Source of the DNA: Actinomycetota bacterium
GTDB lineage: Bacteria > Actinomycetota > Acidimicrobiia > Acidimicrobiales > Ilumatobacteraceae
Direction: 5' to 3'
DNA: 64,000 nt
Assembly (NCBI GenBank): GCA_007279905.1
Contig: QYPH01000048.1
Location: forward strand, 1 to 64,000
Each line of letters starts with the position of its first letter. Position 1 is the stretch's first letter. Under the pieces are notes generated by a model that was not told where the DNA came from, ran no database searches, and saw only the letters and a program-made list of their open reading frames with translations. This document shows, one piece after another, positions 49,636 to 61,617 of this stretch. A program made the position numbers and the translations under genes.

Positions 49636-50802
49636 ATGGTTGTCCCTACCCCTACGACTTATGCCGTTATCACGGGGGGCGCCACGAGTGGGCATGTTGT
49701 TCCTGCACTTTCGATCATCGAACTCTTGGTTGAGGCCGATCATGCAAAAGAAAATTTATTGTATGTGGGCTCGAATAGGGGTATTGAAACTACGTTGGTT
49801 CCGCCAACCGGTGTTGCGTGCATGTTTTTAAGTGTTGATGGATTTCAACGGGGATTTTCTTTCTCAAATATCAAGCGTAATTTCAAGATGCTGCCGCTGA
49901 TGATGCGAGCAACACAGAAAGCGACACAGATTTTGGTGCAAACTCAGCCGCGCGTGGTCGTGTCGGTTGGTGGGTATGTCAGTGCCCCAATCTGTAGGGC
50001 TGCACGACGACTCAAGATTCCTGTAGTGACATGTTCATACGACAGTCAGCCTGGATTGGCGACAAAAATGCAGGCTCGGTATGCGGCCGTAGTTGCAGTG
50101 GCGCAACTGCCAAGCGCGTTGCCACATGCTCGTCTGAGTGGCGCACCTGTTCGTGGCGAACTTCGTACGTTGGATATTCGAGCAACACGAACTGCAGCGC
50201 GTGAACGATTGGCATTTTCGCCTACTGTCAAACTTGTTGTCGTGATGGGTGGTTCGCTTGGCTCATCTGTGTTAAATAATGCGACCCAAAAGTTTGTTGC
50301 AGACATGAATGAAAAGCTGGCTGCGAATGTTTCTGTGTTACACATTGCTGGCGAGAGATTTATGGATTCGTTCAGTCTTCCAAGCGTGATCAAGCGACTC
50401 GACGGCACCGTTCAATATCAGCGCATCGCCTACAGCAACCAGATGCGCGACATCTATGGGGCTGCGGATGTGGTGGTGTCGCGCTCGGGGGCTTCAACAG
50501 TTGCAGAAATCGCGACTGTCGGTGTTGCTTCAATTTTGATTCCTTGGAAGGATGCAGCAGAAAATCATCAGATGACTAATGCCAAGTCATTGAGCGAAAG
50601 AGGTGGCGCGGTTTTGCTGGAAGAATCGCACCTTACCCCCGAGGTGTTTTCACAACGAGTTTGCGAACTATTGCAAGACGACACTCTGCGGTTGCAGTTG
50701 GCAAAAACGGCTCGTGAGATCGGATCGGCTCATCGCAATTGCTCAATTGCGGCTCTTGTTGAATCGGTTGCTCTTGTCGCGCCGAGATTGGAATCGAAGT
50801 GA
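49636..50802 (+). CDS. murG: UDP-GlcNAc:MurNAc-pentapeptide-PP-undecaprenol GlcNAc transferase MurG (divergent acceptor motifs)
   Basis: TGGATSGHVVPALS; VSVGGYVSAP; SRSGASTVAEIATVGVASILIPW; NHQMTNA. Confidence 0.93.
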   Translation: MVVPTPTTYAVITGGATSGHVVPALSIIELLVEADHAKENLLYVGSNRGIETTLVPPTGVACMFLSVDGFQRGFSFSNIKRNFKMLPLMMRATQKATQILVQTQPRVVVSVGGYVSAPICRAARRLKIPVVTCSYDSQPGLATKMQARYAAVVAVAQLPSALPHARLSGAPVRGELRTLDIRATRTAARERLAFSPTVKLVVVMGGSLGSSVLNNATQKFVADMNEKLAANVSVLHIAGERFMDSFSLPSVIKRLDGTVQYQRIAYSNQMRDIYGAADVVVSRSGASTVAEIATVGVASILIPWKDAAENHQMTNAKSLSERGGAVLLEESHLTPEVFSQRVCELLQDDTLRLQLAKTAREIGSAHRNCSIAALVESVALVAPRLESK

Positions 50803-52235
50803 CCACGCAAGTGTTGTTTGATCTGTCAACGCCACGTCGCATCCATATTGTGGGCGTAGGAGGACCGGGCATGAGCGCGATTGCACAAGTGTTGTGCGAA
50901 ATGGGCCATGCAGTTTCCGGAAGCGATATTCATGATTCGCATGTGCTCGATCGTCTGCGTGCAATTGGCGTAAGCATCATCGTTGGTCACAATGCACAAA
51001 TCGTGAATGATTGTGACCTAGTGACTGCATCAACCGCCATACCCGCCACAAATATCGAAATTGTAGAAGCGGCGAGGCAAGCGATTGTGGTGCTGACTCG
51101 TGCTCAGATCCTTCGTTCAATTTGTGCCATGAAGAAATCTGTAGGTGTGGCTGGCACACACGGCAAGACCACAACCTCGGCGATGTTGATGCATATTCTG
51201 TCGGCAGCGCAGCAGCACCCAAGTTTTGTGATCGGCGGTGATGTGCACGGACTTGAGTCTGGGGCAGGGTGGCGAAGCGGGGAGTGTTTGATTGTCGAGG
51301 CCGACGAAAGTGATTCGACTCATTTGGCACTGCCATTACACGGAACGATATTGACCAACGTTGATGTCGATCATCTCGACCACTTCGCAACATTTGACAA
51401 GATCGTTGAAAGTTTTGACCTCTATCTCACGAACATCGGCGGTCCGAAGGTGTTGTGCCTAGATGATCGGGTCTGTCTGTCGCTGAGTCAATCTCATGCA
51501 TGCAGCACCTACGGCATACATGCTGATTGTGATGTTCGCGCGATCAATGTTGTGCTCGCAGATGGAACGAGTCATTTTGATGTTGAGATGCGCCAGTCGG
51601 GCTCTCATGACAAGCGCGAAATGGTTGGGTCGGTAAATGTTCCATTGCGTGGAGTACACAACGTGCTCAACGCATTGGGTGCTTTGACGATGGCGATGCA
51701 ACTTGGGGTTGATTTTGCGGCTGCCAGTCGAGCAATGAACAATTTTGGTGGTGTTGCACGTCGGTTTGACATTAAGGGTGTTGATGGTGGCGTGACATTT
51801 GTAGATGACTATGCGCATTTGCCGAACGAAATTGCTGCAGTGTTGCAGGGCGCTCGAGACACAACCGATTCATGGAATCGTGTCGTGGCTGTATTTCAGC
51901 CAAATAGATTTAACAGAATGAGTGTGATGTCCGATGCTTATGCGGATGCCTTTGTCGATGCAGATGTAGTGGTGGTCACCGAAATCTATTCTTCTGGAAC
52001 CACGCCGATACCTGGCGTAACTGGCAAACTTGTTGTTGATGCAATCCGGCGCGAACACCCTGCAACACGAGTTGAGTGGATTGCTCAGTGGGATGACCTC
52101 GTGAGCTTCCTCGCTTCCGAACTCACGACAGGCGACCTGTGTATCTCGATGGGCTGCGGAGATGTCGCGTTACTGCCTGGTGAAGTGATGTCTTTGCGTC
52201 AGAGTCATCGCGCTCATAACCCTCAGAGCAAATAG
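50799..52235 (+). CDS. murC: UDP-MurNAc:L-Ala ligase
   Basis: IVGVGGPGMSAIAQVL, GVAGTHGKTTTSAML, VEADESDSTHLAL, FVDDYAHLPNEIAAVL. Confidence 0.96.
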   Translation: MTTQVLFDLSTPRRIHIVGVGGPGMSAIAQVLCEMGHAVSGSDIHDSHVLDRLRAIGVSIIVGHNAQIVNDCDLVTASTAIPATNIEIVEAARQAIVVLTRAQILRSICAMKKSVGVAGTHGKTTTSAMLMHILSAAQQHPSFVIGGDVHGLESGAGWRSGECLIVEADESDSTHLALPLHGTILTNVDVDHLDHFATFDKIVESFDLYLTNIGGPKVLCLDDRVCLSLSQSHACSTYGIHADCDVRAINVVLADGTSHFDVEMRQSGSHDKREMVGSVNVPLRGVHNVLNALGALTMAMQLGVDFAAASRAMNNFGGVARRFDIKGVDGGVTFVDDYAHLPNEIAAVLQGARDTTDSWNRVVAVFQPNRFNRMSVMSDAYADAFVDADVVVVTEIYSSGTTPIPGVTGKLVVDAIRREHPATRVEWIAQWDDLVSFLASELTTGDLCISMGCGDVALLPGEVMSLRQSHRAHNPQSK

Positions 52236-52239
52236 CCAT

Positions 52240-54501
52240 ATGAGCACGCATCGATCTTTGCAACGACCAGCAACTCGAGCGGAGCTAGATCTTGCGACGC
52301 AATTGTTCGAAAATCGTGCGCAAATCAATGTGTCTCTTGCGCAATTTACGACGTACAAAGTTGGCGGCAGCGCCGCGCTGCACATGCATATTGAATCAAT
52401 TGAAGATTTAGAACGAGTGAGTGCAGTCCTGGCTCAAGTAGATCTGCCGCTTTTGGTGATTGGACGAGGCAGCAACATGTTGATAGCCGACACCGGTTTT
52501 GCTGGTTTGGCAATTACTTTTGGAAATTTTCTGGAATACATCGACTTACCCGACCGATCAGAACAAGATGTTGAACCGATTGCGCTTTTCGGTGGATCGG
52601 TGTTGTTGCCAGTGGCAGCTAGGCAAAGTGTTCATCGTGGATTGACTGGGCTCGAGTGGGGCGTTGGTGTACCAGGCACCATTGGCGGTGCCGTGCGCAT
52701 GAATGCTGGTGGTCATGGTTCTGATATGGCTGCTTCGCTTGTGTCAGCACGCATCTTTCATCTACGACGCGGTATTGAGGCGTATGTTGACGCAGTCGAT
52801 TTGGGATTGCGATTTAGGGGTTCAGCGATTGCGGATCACCATGTGGTGCTGAGTGCAACGCTCAATTTGGGTTGGGCAACCGATACGGATGCATGTGAAG
52901 ACAAGCTCACAGAGATCGTGAAATGGCGCAGAGACAACCAGCCAGGTGGTCAAAACGCAGGATCTGTTTTCGTTAATCCTGTACCAGGAGAAGTCTCGGC
53001 TGGTGCCCTCATCGATCAGATTGGAATGCGCGGATTTCGAATAGGAAGCGCGCATGTCTCGGAAAAGCACGCCAATTTTATTCAGGCCGACGAAGGTGGG
53101 TTGGCTGCCGACATCGTGCAAGTGATGGCCGAGATTCGTCGTCGTGTAAAAGAGTCATCTGGGTATGACCTGCGAAGCGAAATACGACTCGCAGGTTTTG
53201 ATGCTGCAATTGATCCGAGTCTTGCCGATGTATTGACCAGTGAATCGGATACGAGTGTGGCAACAGTGAGGCTTGAACACATTTTTGATCGCAATGCGAG
53301 TACGTCGATTGTCGCCGACACATCCATTCCGTTGTCCATCATCACTGCTACAACTTTTCAAGATTCAATGGACGTGTCGGAGCAGGTACTTGATGAGTTG
53401 CGTTCGGTTTTTAATGACAACACATTTGTCGGCGAGGATCAGCCCACAGTTGCATCGGTCACCGATATCAAAACCAGGGAAGTGACGGTAAATACAACTG
53501 CGACTGTTACATCGGCAACAAATTTGCCGACTACTTCGTCTATTGCTTCGTCTATTGCTTCGTCTGATACTGCGCCTACGCGAGTTGTCATTGTTGATGA
53601 CGACTTCCGTCAGCCATCCGAAACAGATTTCCCAAGTGACACCTCGTCGCAATCGGTACACCAGGCACCGACATCGGTACGTGTGCTGATCACTGACGAA
53701 GATATTGCCAGCGAGAATGATGCACAAATCATTGTTGGCACTGAATGGAGCAATTCGAAGCGATCTCGCAAGTTACTTCGAGCGGCTAAAAAAAGAGTTG
53801 TTGGTGGTAATGCACGAAAGCGTTTGGTGATAACAGGTTTTGGTCTTGTGATTTTGATTGGCATTGTTCTTGTCGTGCTCGCTTCGCCAATCGTGGCTGT
53901 ACGAACAGTGCGCGTGGAGGGTGCAAAATATGCTGATGCCGCTCTTGTGCGAAGTGTTGCCGAGTCGTTGAAGGGCAAGTCTGTGCTTACCGTTGATACG
54001 AAAACGGCGCAACAACGACTTGAGGGTGACCCATGGATCGAATCGGTGCGGATCTCAACAAGCCTGCCAAGTCGTGTATTGATTCAAATTAATGAGCGCA
54101 CTCCTGCTGCTTGGTTTCTTGGGGTTGACAATCGGGCTCGAGTGATTGACCCGAATGGATTGGTATTAAGTGTGGTGGAGGGGCGACCAACCCAATACAT
54201 GTGGATCGAAGGAACGGGACCAAACTTGACTCCCGGCGCGAGTTCGACGGCTGCGTATAAGGCTGCTGGTCAATTGGCTCTGTCATTACCGCCAGAGCTT
54301 GCCCCAATGGTCAAGCACCTTGGCGTGGCTGGCTCGGATCAGATCACGATGACCCTCAAAACAGGCACAATTATCAATTTTGGATCGCCTGTAGATATGC
54401 GAAACAAGCTTGTGAATGTCGTGGTTTTGCTACGGCGCCAAGATGTCAACTCGATTATCAGCATTGATGTCTCGACGGGAACTCCGGTAGTTCAGTCGTA
54501 A
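52240..54501 (+). CDS. murB-ftsQ: Fused UDP-N-acetylenolpyruvoylglucosamine reductase (MurB) - FtsQ division protein
   Basis: N-terminal MurB (FTTYKVGGSA, VIGRGSNMLIADTGF, GVPGTIGGAVRMNAGGHG, QNAGSVFVNP, RSEIRLAGF); about 200-aa Ser/Thr-rich linker; TM RLVITGFGLVILIGIVLVVLAS; POTRA/FtsQ (IVAVRTVRVEGAKYADAALV...DPWIESVRISTSLPSRVLIQINERTPAAWF). One uninterrupted ORF. Confidence 0.93.
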   Translation: MSTHRSLQRPATRAELDLATQLFENRAQINVSLAQFTTYKVGGSAALHMHIESIEDLERVSAVLAQVDLPLLVIGRGSNMLIADTGFAGLAITFGNFLEYIDLPDRSEQDVEPIALFGGSVLLPVAARQSVHRGLTGLEWGVGVPGTIGGAVRMNAGGHGSDMAASLVSARIFHLRRGIEAYVDAVDLGLRFRGSAIADHHVVLSATLNLGWATDTDACEDKLTEIVKWRRDNQPGGQNAGSVFVNPVPGEVSAGALIDQIGMRGFRIGSAHVSEKHANFIQADEGGLAADIVQVMAEIRRRVKESSGYDLRSEIRLAGFDAAIDPSLADVLTSESDTSVATVRLEHIFDRNASTSIVADTSIPLSIITATTFQDSMDVSEQVLDELRSVFNDNTFVGEDQPTVASVTDIKTREVTVNTTATVTSATNLPTTSSIASSIASSDTAPTRVVIVDDDFRQPSETDFPSDTSSQSVHQAPTSVRVLITDEDIASENDAQIIVGTEWSNSKRSRKLLRAAKKRVVGGNARKRLVITGFGLVILIGIVLVVLASPIVAVRTVRVEGAKYADAALVRSVAESLKGKSVLTVDTKTAQQRLEGDPWIESVRISTSLPSRVLIQINERTPAAWFLGVDNRARVIDPNGLVLSVVEGRPTQYMWIEGTGPNLTPGASSTAAYKAAGQLALSLPPELAPMVKHLGVAGSDQITMTLKTGTIINFGSPVDMRNKLVNVVVLLRRQDVNSIISIDVSTGTPVVQS

Positions 54502-54647: not shown

Positions 54648-55751
54648 ATGGCTGGTGCACCACAAAACTTTTTGGCTGTAATCAAAGTAATAGGAGTCGG
54701 TGGAGCGGGCGTTAACGCCATCAATCGAATGATCGACTCCAATTTGAGAGGAGTCGAGTTTGTGGCAGTCAACACCGATGCGCAGGCATTGTTGATGAGC
54801 GATGCAGATTTCAAGATTGACATCGGTCGCGAAATTACTCGTGGCCTTGGTGCAGGTAGCGACCCAGCGATTGGTCAAGACGCCGCCGAAGCAAGTCGAA
54901 GTGATATCGAAGAAATTGTTAGTGGTGCAGATATGGTATTTATTACCGCTGGTGAAGGTGGTGGTACCGGTACTGGTGCAGCACCGATCATCGCAGAGAT
55001 CGCACGCGCCGCTGGTGCATTAACAGTTGGCATCGTGACACGTCCGTTTGGTTTTGAAGGTCGTCGTCGTGCGATGCAAGCGGAAGCTGGTATCGCAAAG
55101 TTGCGCGAAAAAGTCGACACGCTGATCATCATTCCCAACGAACGGTTGTTGTCGGTTGCCACCGAGAAGACGAGTTTGTTGGATGCCTTTAAGCGCGCGG
55201 ATGAAGTGCTCTTGCAAGGCGTTGCTGGTATTACCAATTTGATCACCACACCAGGTCTGATCAACACCGACTTTGCCGACGTCAAAATGATTTTGACAAA
55301 TGCAGGCACGGCTTTGATGGGCACGGGCAAGGCAAAGGGCGACAATCGTGCGATTGCTGCAGCAACTTCTGCAATCAACTCGCCACTGCTCGAGTCCTCA
55401 ATTGAGGGCGCAAGAGGCATTTTGCTGAACATCACCGGACCTTCCGACATGGGGTTGTTTGAACTGAATGCCGCTGCCGAAATTGTGCATGCCGTTGCGC
55501 ATCAGGACGCCAATATCATTTTTGGAACAGTGATCAACGACGAACTCGAAGACGAGGTGCAAGTCACCGTTATCGCCGCCGGCTTCGATCGATCTGACCC
55601 TGGAATGGCGAGAGGCTCGAATCGCGGAGACGGTCGCGCCGATACTCGCGGCGAACAGCGTGGAAGTCGAATCAAAGAGTTGTTTGGTTCTGGCGAAGAC
55701 CCACTGCGTGATTCCTCTGATGGCTTTGACGTTCCAGACTTTCTCAAGTAG
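54648..55751 (+). CDS. ftsZ: Cell division protein FtsZ
   Basis: [45 protein letters not shown]-terminal peptide DVPDFLK. Confidence 0.99.
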
Positions 55752-56460: not shown

Positions 56461-56483
56461 CAGAGTGCTGTAAAGTGTTCATA

Positions 56484-57059
56484 ATGTCAATGTTTAGACG
56501 CGCAATGGACTATTTGGGTCTTGGCCCTGATGATGCCTACGACGATTACGACGCCTCGGTGGCTGTTGAACGTCCAGCAGCTCGTAACACGCGCGGGGCA
56601 GGTGCGTCACGTCGCCCTCAACCTCAACCGTATAGAGATGGGTATGGCGATGAGTACGAAGATGATGTCGAAGACGACATTGAGGTTGCACCGCGTGCGC
56701 GAAATGGTTCTGGAGCACGGCCTGCCGCGGTGAGGGCGCAAGGTCAACGCGACGACTCAAGTGTGCAACTACGACCTTCTGGTGCGAGCACTGGTGGAAC
56801 GGTGAAAAAACTTACTCAGACAACAGCTGAGCCCGTATTGATTCGTCCTACGCGCTACGACCAAGCAAAAGATATTGCAGACTTACTCAAGAGTGGTCAA
56901 CCTGTTGCAATGAATATTGGAGCAGCAGACTCCGAGATTGCTCGAAGGCTGATTGACTTTGCAAGCGGAGTTATTTACGGAATCGAAGGTCAAATGGAAA
57001 AGATTGCACCGGGTGTATTTCTGCTCACACCTCGTGGCACGCGCGTAATTCGTGACTGA
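56484..57059 (+). CDS. sepF: Cell division protein SepF
   Basis: MSMFRRAMDYLGLGPDD; C-terminal RPTRYDQAKDIADLLKSGQPVAMNI...RLIDFASGVIYGIEGQMEKIAPGVFLLTP. Confidence 0.95.
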   Translation: MSMFRRAMDYLGLGPDDAYDDYDASVAVERPAARNTRGAGASRRPQPQPYRDGYGDEYEDDVEDDIEVAPRARNGSGARPAAVRAQGQRDDSSVQLRPSGASTGGTVKKLTQTTAEPVLIRPTRYDQAKDIADLLKSGQPVAMNIGAADSEIARRLIDFASGVIYGIEGQMEKIAPGVFLLTPRGTRVIRD

Positions 57060-60468: not shown

Positions 60469-61617
60469 ATGCCAACAGCATTTGCAAAGAAAAAGGCCGC
60501 AGCACAAAAGAAAGCCGCGCTAGCCAAAAAAGCCGCGCTAGCCAAGAAAATTGGTGCGCAAAAGGCGGCTGCACAAAAAATAGCGACGCAGAAGAAAGCC
60601 GCGCTAGCCAAGAAGGTTGCATTGGCCAAGAAAGTTGCAGATCAAAAGGCTGCGGCACAGAAGAAAGCCGCGCTGGCAAAGAAGGTTGCATTGGCCAAGA
60701 AAGCCGAATTGGCAAAAAAAGTAGCAGCACAAAAGGCCGCAGCTCAGAAGAAAGCCGTGCTAGCCAAGAAAGCCGAGTTGGCGAAGAAAACTGAATTGGC
60801 TAAAAAGATAGCAGCGCAAAAGACTGCAGCCCAAAAGAAGGCTGCGCTGGAAAAGAAAACTGAATTAGCGAAGAAAGTTGCAGCCAAAAAGGTCGCAGAT
60901 GCCGCGCGCAAAAAAGCATTACGCGACAAAGAGACGGAGCGCAAGAAGATTGCGGCTCAGCGTAAAAAAGATCTTGCTGCCAGCCAGAAGTTGAAAGCAA
61001 TTGCCGCAAAGGAAGCAGCCAAAGAAAAGGCTCGCATCGCTGCCGAAAAACTGGCGCTCAAGATTGCACAAGACGCCGAAAAGGCTCGTCTTCGTGATGA
61101 AAAGGAAGCGGCTCGACTTGCATTAGCTGCCGAAAAAGAAGAAGCGCGCGAAGCCGCATTGCGAGCAAAGCGAAAGCCAGAGCCACCACCGCGTCCAGTA
61201 ATTGTCAAAACAGAGTTTGCCGACGGAATCCAGGCGACAAAAGAATTTGATCTCAAATTCTTGGCAGGTCAGCGCGAGGCAATGTTGGAAAAGAAGTCCG
61301 TACTGCTTCGCCAAGCACTGCGACTTGATGATGAGGCAAACTCGCTGATTCAAGATGTAGAGATGGGCGATGTGCAGTTTGATGAAGAAGGCGGAGAGGG
61401 AGACACCATGGTGGTTGAACGCTCGCGTGACCTCATGTTGTCGGCCCAAGCCCGACAGATTGCCGAAGAATTAGACGCTGCTCTCGAGCGAATCAAGACC
61501 GGTGAGTATGGGTATTCCATTCACAGCGGCTTGGCAATTCCGCGTGAGCGTTTGAAGGCAATTCCTGAGACAACCGAATCGGTTCTTGAACGTGTCGGTG
61601 GCATTGGTCGTCGATGA
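60469..61617 (+). CDS. Lys/Ala-rich histone-H1-like repeat protein with C-terminal DksA/TraR-like domain lacking zinc ligands
   Basis: Repeated (A)KKAALAKK/AAAQKK units, then ALERIKTGEYGYSIHSGLAIPRERLKAIPETTESVLERVGG aligning with the YGxCxxCGxxIPxxRLxAxPxAxxCxxC DksA/TraR finger; no Cys in the translation. Confidence 0.82.
   Translation: MPTAFAKKKAAAQKKAALAKKAALAKKIGAQKAAAQKIATQKKAALAKKVALAKKVADQKAAAQKKAALAKKVALAKKAELAKKVAAQKAAAQKKAVLAKKAELAKKTELAKKIAAQKTAAQKKAALEKKTELAKKVAAKKVADAARKKALRDKETERKKIAAQRKKDLAASQKLKAIAAKEAAKEKARIAAEKLALKIAQDAEKARLRDEKEAARLALAAEKEEAREAALRAKRKPEPPPRPVIVKTEFADGIQATKEFDLKFLAGQREAMLEKKSVLLRQALRLDDEANSLIQDVEMGDVQFDEEGGEGDTMVVERSRDLMLSAQARQIAEELDAALERIKTGEYGYSIHSGLAIPRERLKAIPETTESVLERVGGIGRR
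60490..60900. repeat. Imperfect in-frame DNA repeats encoding Lys/Ala-rich heptad-like units
   Basis: Recurrent 'aagaaagccgcgctagccaagaa(a/g)' and 'gcacaaaagaaagccgc' blocks. Confidence 0.8.

Follow-up and report, generated by a model that had tools for sequence, protein, structure and literature searches.

A MurB-FtsQ fusion conserved in three genera of Ilumatobacteraceae

The window analysed here (64,000 nucleotides, from a metagenome-assembled genome, MAG, of Ilumatobacteraceae, Acidimicrobiia, with a completeness of 69%) contains a single open reading frame in which murB is joined to ftsQ. The fusion is real, old and conserved within a clade of aquatic actinobacteria with small genomes. 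We consider it probable that it is functional, giving one chain in which MurB is held at the septal membrane via the FtsQ part.

One reading frame for MurB and FtsQ

The frame opens with ATG and closes with TAA without interruption. Its features and those of its direct neighbours, all on the forward strand, are the following:

50799..52235, + strand, murC, directly upstream and unfused (Mur_ligase domains; its stop lies 4 nt ahead of the ATG of murB)
52240..54501, + strand, MurB-FtsQ fusion ORF of 753 aa (753 codons plus stop; from the ORF listing)
52240..53205, + strand, MurB domain (type II), aa 1-322 (Pfam/NCBIfam, PDB alignments, fold match to 4pyt)
53206..53364, + strand, junction segment, aa 323-375 (the fused clade keeps L345/F349 and D360; pN/pS 0.25)
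53386..53412, + strand, motif A, VLDELRSVF, aa 383-391 (amphipathic helix that is conserved in FtsQ tails; AlphaFold2 helix 381-390)
53575..53682, + strand, motif B region (RVVIVDDD ... APTS), aa 446-481 (residue conservation; pN/pS 0.16)
53812..53883, + strand, transmembrane helix, aa 525-548 (AlphaFold2 helix; basic residues before it)
53896..54099, + strand, FtsQ-type POTRA, aa 553-620 (PF08478, POTRA_1, 53.3 bits against a cut-off of 23)
54100..54498, + strand, C-terminal extracytoplasmic FtsQ domain, aa 621-753 (sub-threshold NF004039 match; FtsQ structures by fold)
54648..55751, + strand, ftsZ, directly downstream (Tubulin and FtsZ_C domains)

In the MurB half, FAD_binding_4 (PF01565, aa 51-171) and MurB_C (PF02873, aa 220-317) both matched above their curated cut-offs, and the NCBIfam murB model TIGR00179 reached 168.9 bits for a cut-off of 144.5. 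Residues S242, E314 and R193 line up with solved MurBs and do not vary among 34 fused homologues; we take the first two to be the catalytic Ser and Glu of MurB and R193 to be the Arg of the (Y/F)RxS motif. By sequence, this half is a complete type II UDP-N-acetylmuramate dehydrogenase (MurB) with intact catalytic residues, for which NADPH-dependent reductase activity is predicted.

The remainder of the chain has the organization of FtsQ, with one transmembrane helix followed by POTRA_1 and a dcw position ahead of ftsZ. The NCBIfam ftsQ model NF004039 matched aa 506-747 with 66.9 bits, under its cut-off of 353; this miss was not counted against FtsQ identity because the model is a lone equivalog with a very high cut-off. 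In an AlphaFold2 model built from the 34 fused homologues, the best PDB fold matches were 4pyt for MurB (E 1.9e-25) and 6h9o for FtsQ (E 2e-8), and Foldseek matched the C-terminal beta domain to the FtsQ structures 6h9o, 5z2w, 2vh1 and 8hhf. The pLDDT values were mostly 80-90 in MurB, confident in the POTRA and beta domains and mostly below 50 in the linker, which is thus modelled as largely disordered.

The single-frame fusion that had been predicted from the letters alone is therefore borne out by Pfam/NCBIfam, by the structural model and by the occurrence of the same frame in about 60 species, and the domain borders first proposed were correct within a few residues. The proposed topology, with MurB inside and the POTRA outside, also agrees with the absence of a transmembrane helix before MurB and with the positive charge preceding the single helix (hydropathy peak at aa 536-554).

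The dcw order is normal, murC - [murB-ftsQ] - ftsZ, with sepF further along (PF04472 at 56475-57059, downstream of ftsZ). Elsewhere in the window, a 382-aa ORF at 60469-61617 carries a long Lys/Ala-rich repeat (AKKAALAKK...) and has no Pfam match; by eye its C-terminus looks DksA/TraR-like.

MurB and FtsQ functions are essential in most bacteria. The POTRA of the fusion is the sole POTRA_1 match in the window genome, and genomes of the same genus (g1) have one POTRA_1 locus and one MurB match each, including genomes 90-98% complete; in G002 there are two POTRA_1 matches, each on its own contig, and one of these is truncated by the contig end. An extra copy of murB or ftsQ was rejected, as no second one was found in fused-clade genomes. 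With a single match for each, the fused gene must supply both functions, unless the assemblies lack a further copy.

Composition and constraint of the linker

The linker of about 200 aa between MurB and the transmembrane helix is acidic and cytoplasmic. The original prediction described it as a Ser/Thr-rich linker; most of it is in fact the cytoplasmic tail that FtsQ already had before the fusion, and it contains conserved motifs. In unfused relatives, FtsQ has a long cytoplasmic tail that is acidic and carries VLxELxxxF near its N-terminus and at least one (I/V)xIxDDD-type motif. VLxELxxxF was present in 37/39 fused linkers and in 38 of the 49 unfused FtsQ tails (mean for shuffled tails at most 0.03), and an R(V/I)VIVD(D/E) motif is kept in the fused-clade linker, where R448, V450, I451, D453 and A476-S479 of motif B are at least 85% conserved. 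The unfused FtsQ of genus g48 aligns to the fusion starting from aa 377-378. Because of these shared motifs and of this alignment start, aa ~377-524 can be assigned to the ancestral FtsQ tail, and by sequence comparison the linker is mainly this old tail. The segment aa ~323-376, on the same grounds, is MurB C-terminus plus new sequence, with L345 (97%), F349 (94%) and D360 (100%) conserved across the three fused genera; no counterpart of this post-MurB segment was seen in unfused relatives. Helices were modelled in the linker at aa 326-333, 339-354 and 381-390.

Whether fused or not, cytoplasmic FtsQ tails of the family share VLxELxxxF and DDxLPDxVYLD / VFIxDDD motifs; unfused examples are L067, L069, L072, L094 and L110. 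Many unfused tails also have a clear Arg/Ala-rich stretch, similar to that of the Mycobacterium tuberculosis FtsQ discussed below, which is less evident in the fused clade.

Comparison of the window with five close relatives, for which synonymous sites are close to saturation, gave a pN/pS of 0.13 both in MurB and in the FtsQ part; within the linker, the value was 0.16 in motif B, 0.25 in the junction and 0.41-0.45 elsewhere. This pattern implies that the linker is translated in frame and constrained. Its fast-evolving parts show 47-57% identity vs 85% in MurB.

These data bear on the question of an assembly or sequencing artefact, that is, a stop or frameshift missed in the linker, which had been named at the outset as a way in which the fusion could fail. 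In favour of such an error, the window's MAG is only 69% complete. However, an identical in-frame fusion occurs in about 60 independently assembled MAGs and the linker is under clear purifying selection; since so many assemblies share the open frame, the artefact is excluded.

One could also suppose that the product is processed, or that FtsQ is made in addition by internal initiation, so that the cell runs on separate MurB and FtsQ. Being long and disordered, the linker would be protease-accessible and may contain a cleavage site. For initiation, the window has an ATG at aa 377, just ahead of motif A and near the ancestral FtsQ start, where the g48 alignment also begins. However, this ATG lacks a Shine-Dalgarno-like site, and among 39 distinct fused sequences no ATG, GTG or TTG with such a site is kept in position; an internal FtsQ start was accordingly rejected. 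We regard separate products, by either route, as improbable.

Distribution and origin of the fusion

A survey of 223 genomes of Ilumatobacteraceae found that three genera (g1, g4 and g9), with about 60 species between them, carry the fused frame intact; no assessable genome of these genera lacked it. The fusion was present in 20/20 assessable genomes of g1, the genus of the window (outside this count, two genomes were broken at contig ends and an incomplete one had no match), in 28/28 of g4 (two of these called from frame length; one more was broken at a contig end) and in 12/12 of g9 (one further genome had no assignable state). Separate ftsQ genes were found in g2, g3, g6, g13, g40, g48 and other genera. 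The suspicion that relatives might all keep murB and ftsQ apart thus holds for the rest of the family but not for these three genera, and MurB-FtsQ can be described as a clade-specific fused allele. Those neighbours that carry names are MAGs of Ilumatobacteraceae/Acidimicrobiia and include acIV and BACL27 bins; their names indicate a largely aquatic origin.

No further MurB-FtsQ fusion was found among the matches listed for samples of the order (199 genomes) and of the phylum (398). Long MurB frames in g6 and g13 were rejected as fusions, murB and ftsQ being separate genes there; those found elsewhere in the order and in further actinobacteria were extended mainly upstream and had no FtsQ (20/20 loci). 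In four actinobacteria of another family, f76 (L157, L158, L159, L160), an in-frame Gfo/Idh/MocA-like oxidoreductase domain precedes MurB, by eye; from its sequence this frame resembles a different kind of MurB fusion.

A maximum-likelihood tree of MurB+FtsQ, which is built from the fused genes themselves, placed all 39 fused rows in a single clade (support 97/91) and grouped the nine MurC-MurB-fused rows in another (100/100). A MurC tree was considered as an independent marker and set aside in favour of the MurB+FtsQ tree, because some of its branches are too long and it separates the three fused genera from one another, though with little support. On this sequence evidence, a single merger of murB and ftsQ in the ancestor of the three genera best explains the data. 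The end of murB overlaps the start of ftsQ by 4 nt (ATGA) in several near relatives, so that a small indel could have fused the frames.

Two other arrangements were observed at this locus. In the g13 genome G034 (L126, 2819-2822), murB and ftsQ lie in the same frame with one stop codon between them, possibly an intermediate state toward fusion. In the sister genus g2, murC and murB share one frame and ftsQ is separate (L029, L073, L078, L086, L088, L092, L093, L109, L131 and L132); this fusion is apparently independent of the MurB/C fusion of Verrucomicrobia.

The main rival to tethering is a neutral origin by genome streamlining, in which overlapping murB and ftsQ lost the intervening stop in a small-genome lineage and MurB is tethered without benefit. 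The cell would tolerate the fused chain, as both domains are insulated by the long, disordered tail of FtsQ. The ATGA overlap of near relatives fits this explanation, as does a single origin, which requires no repeated selection; moreover, since g2 merged murC with murB instead, fusions recur in this small-genome family. On the other hand, no re-split of the fusion was seen across the fused species, and L345, F349 and D360 of the post-MurB segment are conserved in all three genera. We therefore hold a neutral fusion to be possible but clearly less likely than a functional one.

Probable septal tethering of MurB and known systems

In the functional fusion that we favour, one chain would be translated with MurB cytoplasmic and the POTRA outside. 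The FtsQ part is predicted to join the divisome through FtsB/FtsL and to be septal, while motifs of the cytoplasmic tail may bind a partner near the Z-ring. MurB would thereby be kept at the septal membrane, where UDP-MurNAc could be passed to MurC and then to MraY/MurG, tethering raising its supply near these enzymes; the linker would be long and disordered enough to leave catalysis unconstrained. Because it is fused to a divisome membrane protein, MurB is probably carried to the division site, as judged from architecture. Purifying selection on both ends and on parts of the linker supports a working fusion. Against tethering, MurB must also serve elongation, where septal anchoring is of no obvious use, and the fast divergence of parts of the linker is what would be expected of a mere spacer.

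A stronger form of the proposal, which we put forward tentatively, is that a precursor enzyme has been hard-wired into the divisome. UDP-MurNAc synthesis would then be fixed to FtsQ spatially and stoichiometrically, with septal synthesis as its privileged consumer, and the tail motifs, including those new in the fused clade, would help to organise a MurB-MurC-MraY/MurG assembly. Whether cytoplasmic Mur enzymes work at the division site as a localised complex is usually approached through weak interactions. Here the link has been made covalent by evolution and retained in a whole clade, which provides a natural experiment on whether substrate is channelled to the septum.

The unfused FtsQ of Mycobacterium tuberculosis is likewise an actinobacterial FtsQ with a long, largely disordered cytoplasmic tail (99 aa) having acidic and basic parts, and the Arg/Ala-rich helix of this tail binds both acidic lipids and the GTPase domain of FtsZ (PMC10036325). 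FtsQ tails of the phylum can therefore act near the Z-ring, an analogy that lends indirect support to septal tethering. The M. tuberculosis protein differs in having no N-terminal enzyme and in its Arg/Ala-rich helix, which has no clear counterpart in the fused clade; VLxELxxxF was not seen in its description (PMC10036325). That fused and unfused proteins alike carry this motif points to a divisome contact that has gone unrecognised in this family of Acidimicrobiia.

Consistent with the original prediction, which knew of no described case, a search of the open-access literature yielded fusions of the MurB/C and MurC-Ddl types but none of MurB with FtsQ. In Verrucomicrobium spinosum and relatives, murB is likewise joined in a single gene to another member of the dcw set; the MurC part of this MurB/C fusion is functional by complementation (PMC4803751) and the fusion is essential in vivo (PMC12283558). 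It unites, however, two soluble cytoplasmic enzymes of consecutive steps, with no membrane or division protein. The MurC-Ddl fusion of Chlamydia, as cited in PMC4803751, similarly joins two peptidoglycan-pathway genes, but those of two soluble enzymes, without FtsQ or a transmembrane helix. Neither gene pair matches the present one, in which the partner is FtsQ and murC has its own stop. Mur enzyme complexes scaffolded by MurG, as outlined in PMC6420597, share with the fusion the idea of concentrating cytoplasmic Mur enzymes near the membrane steps, whereas in that outline they rely on non-covalent interactions without an FtsQ tether. What is new relative to known dcw gene fusions is thus the partner, a divisome membrane protein.
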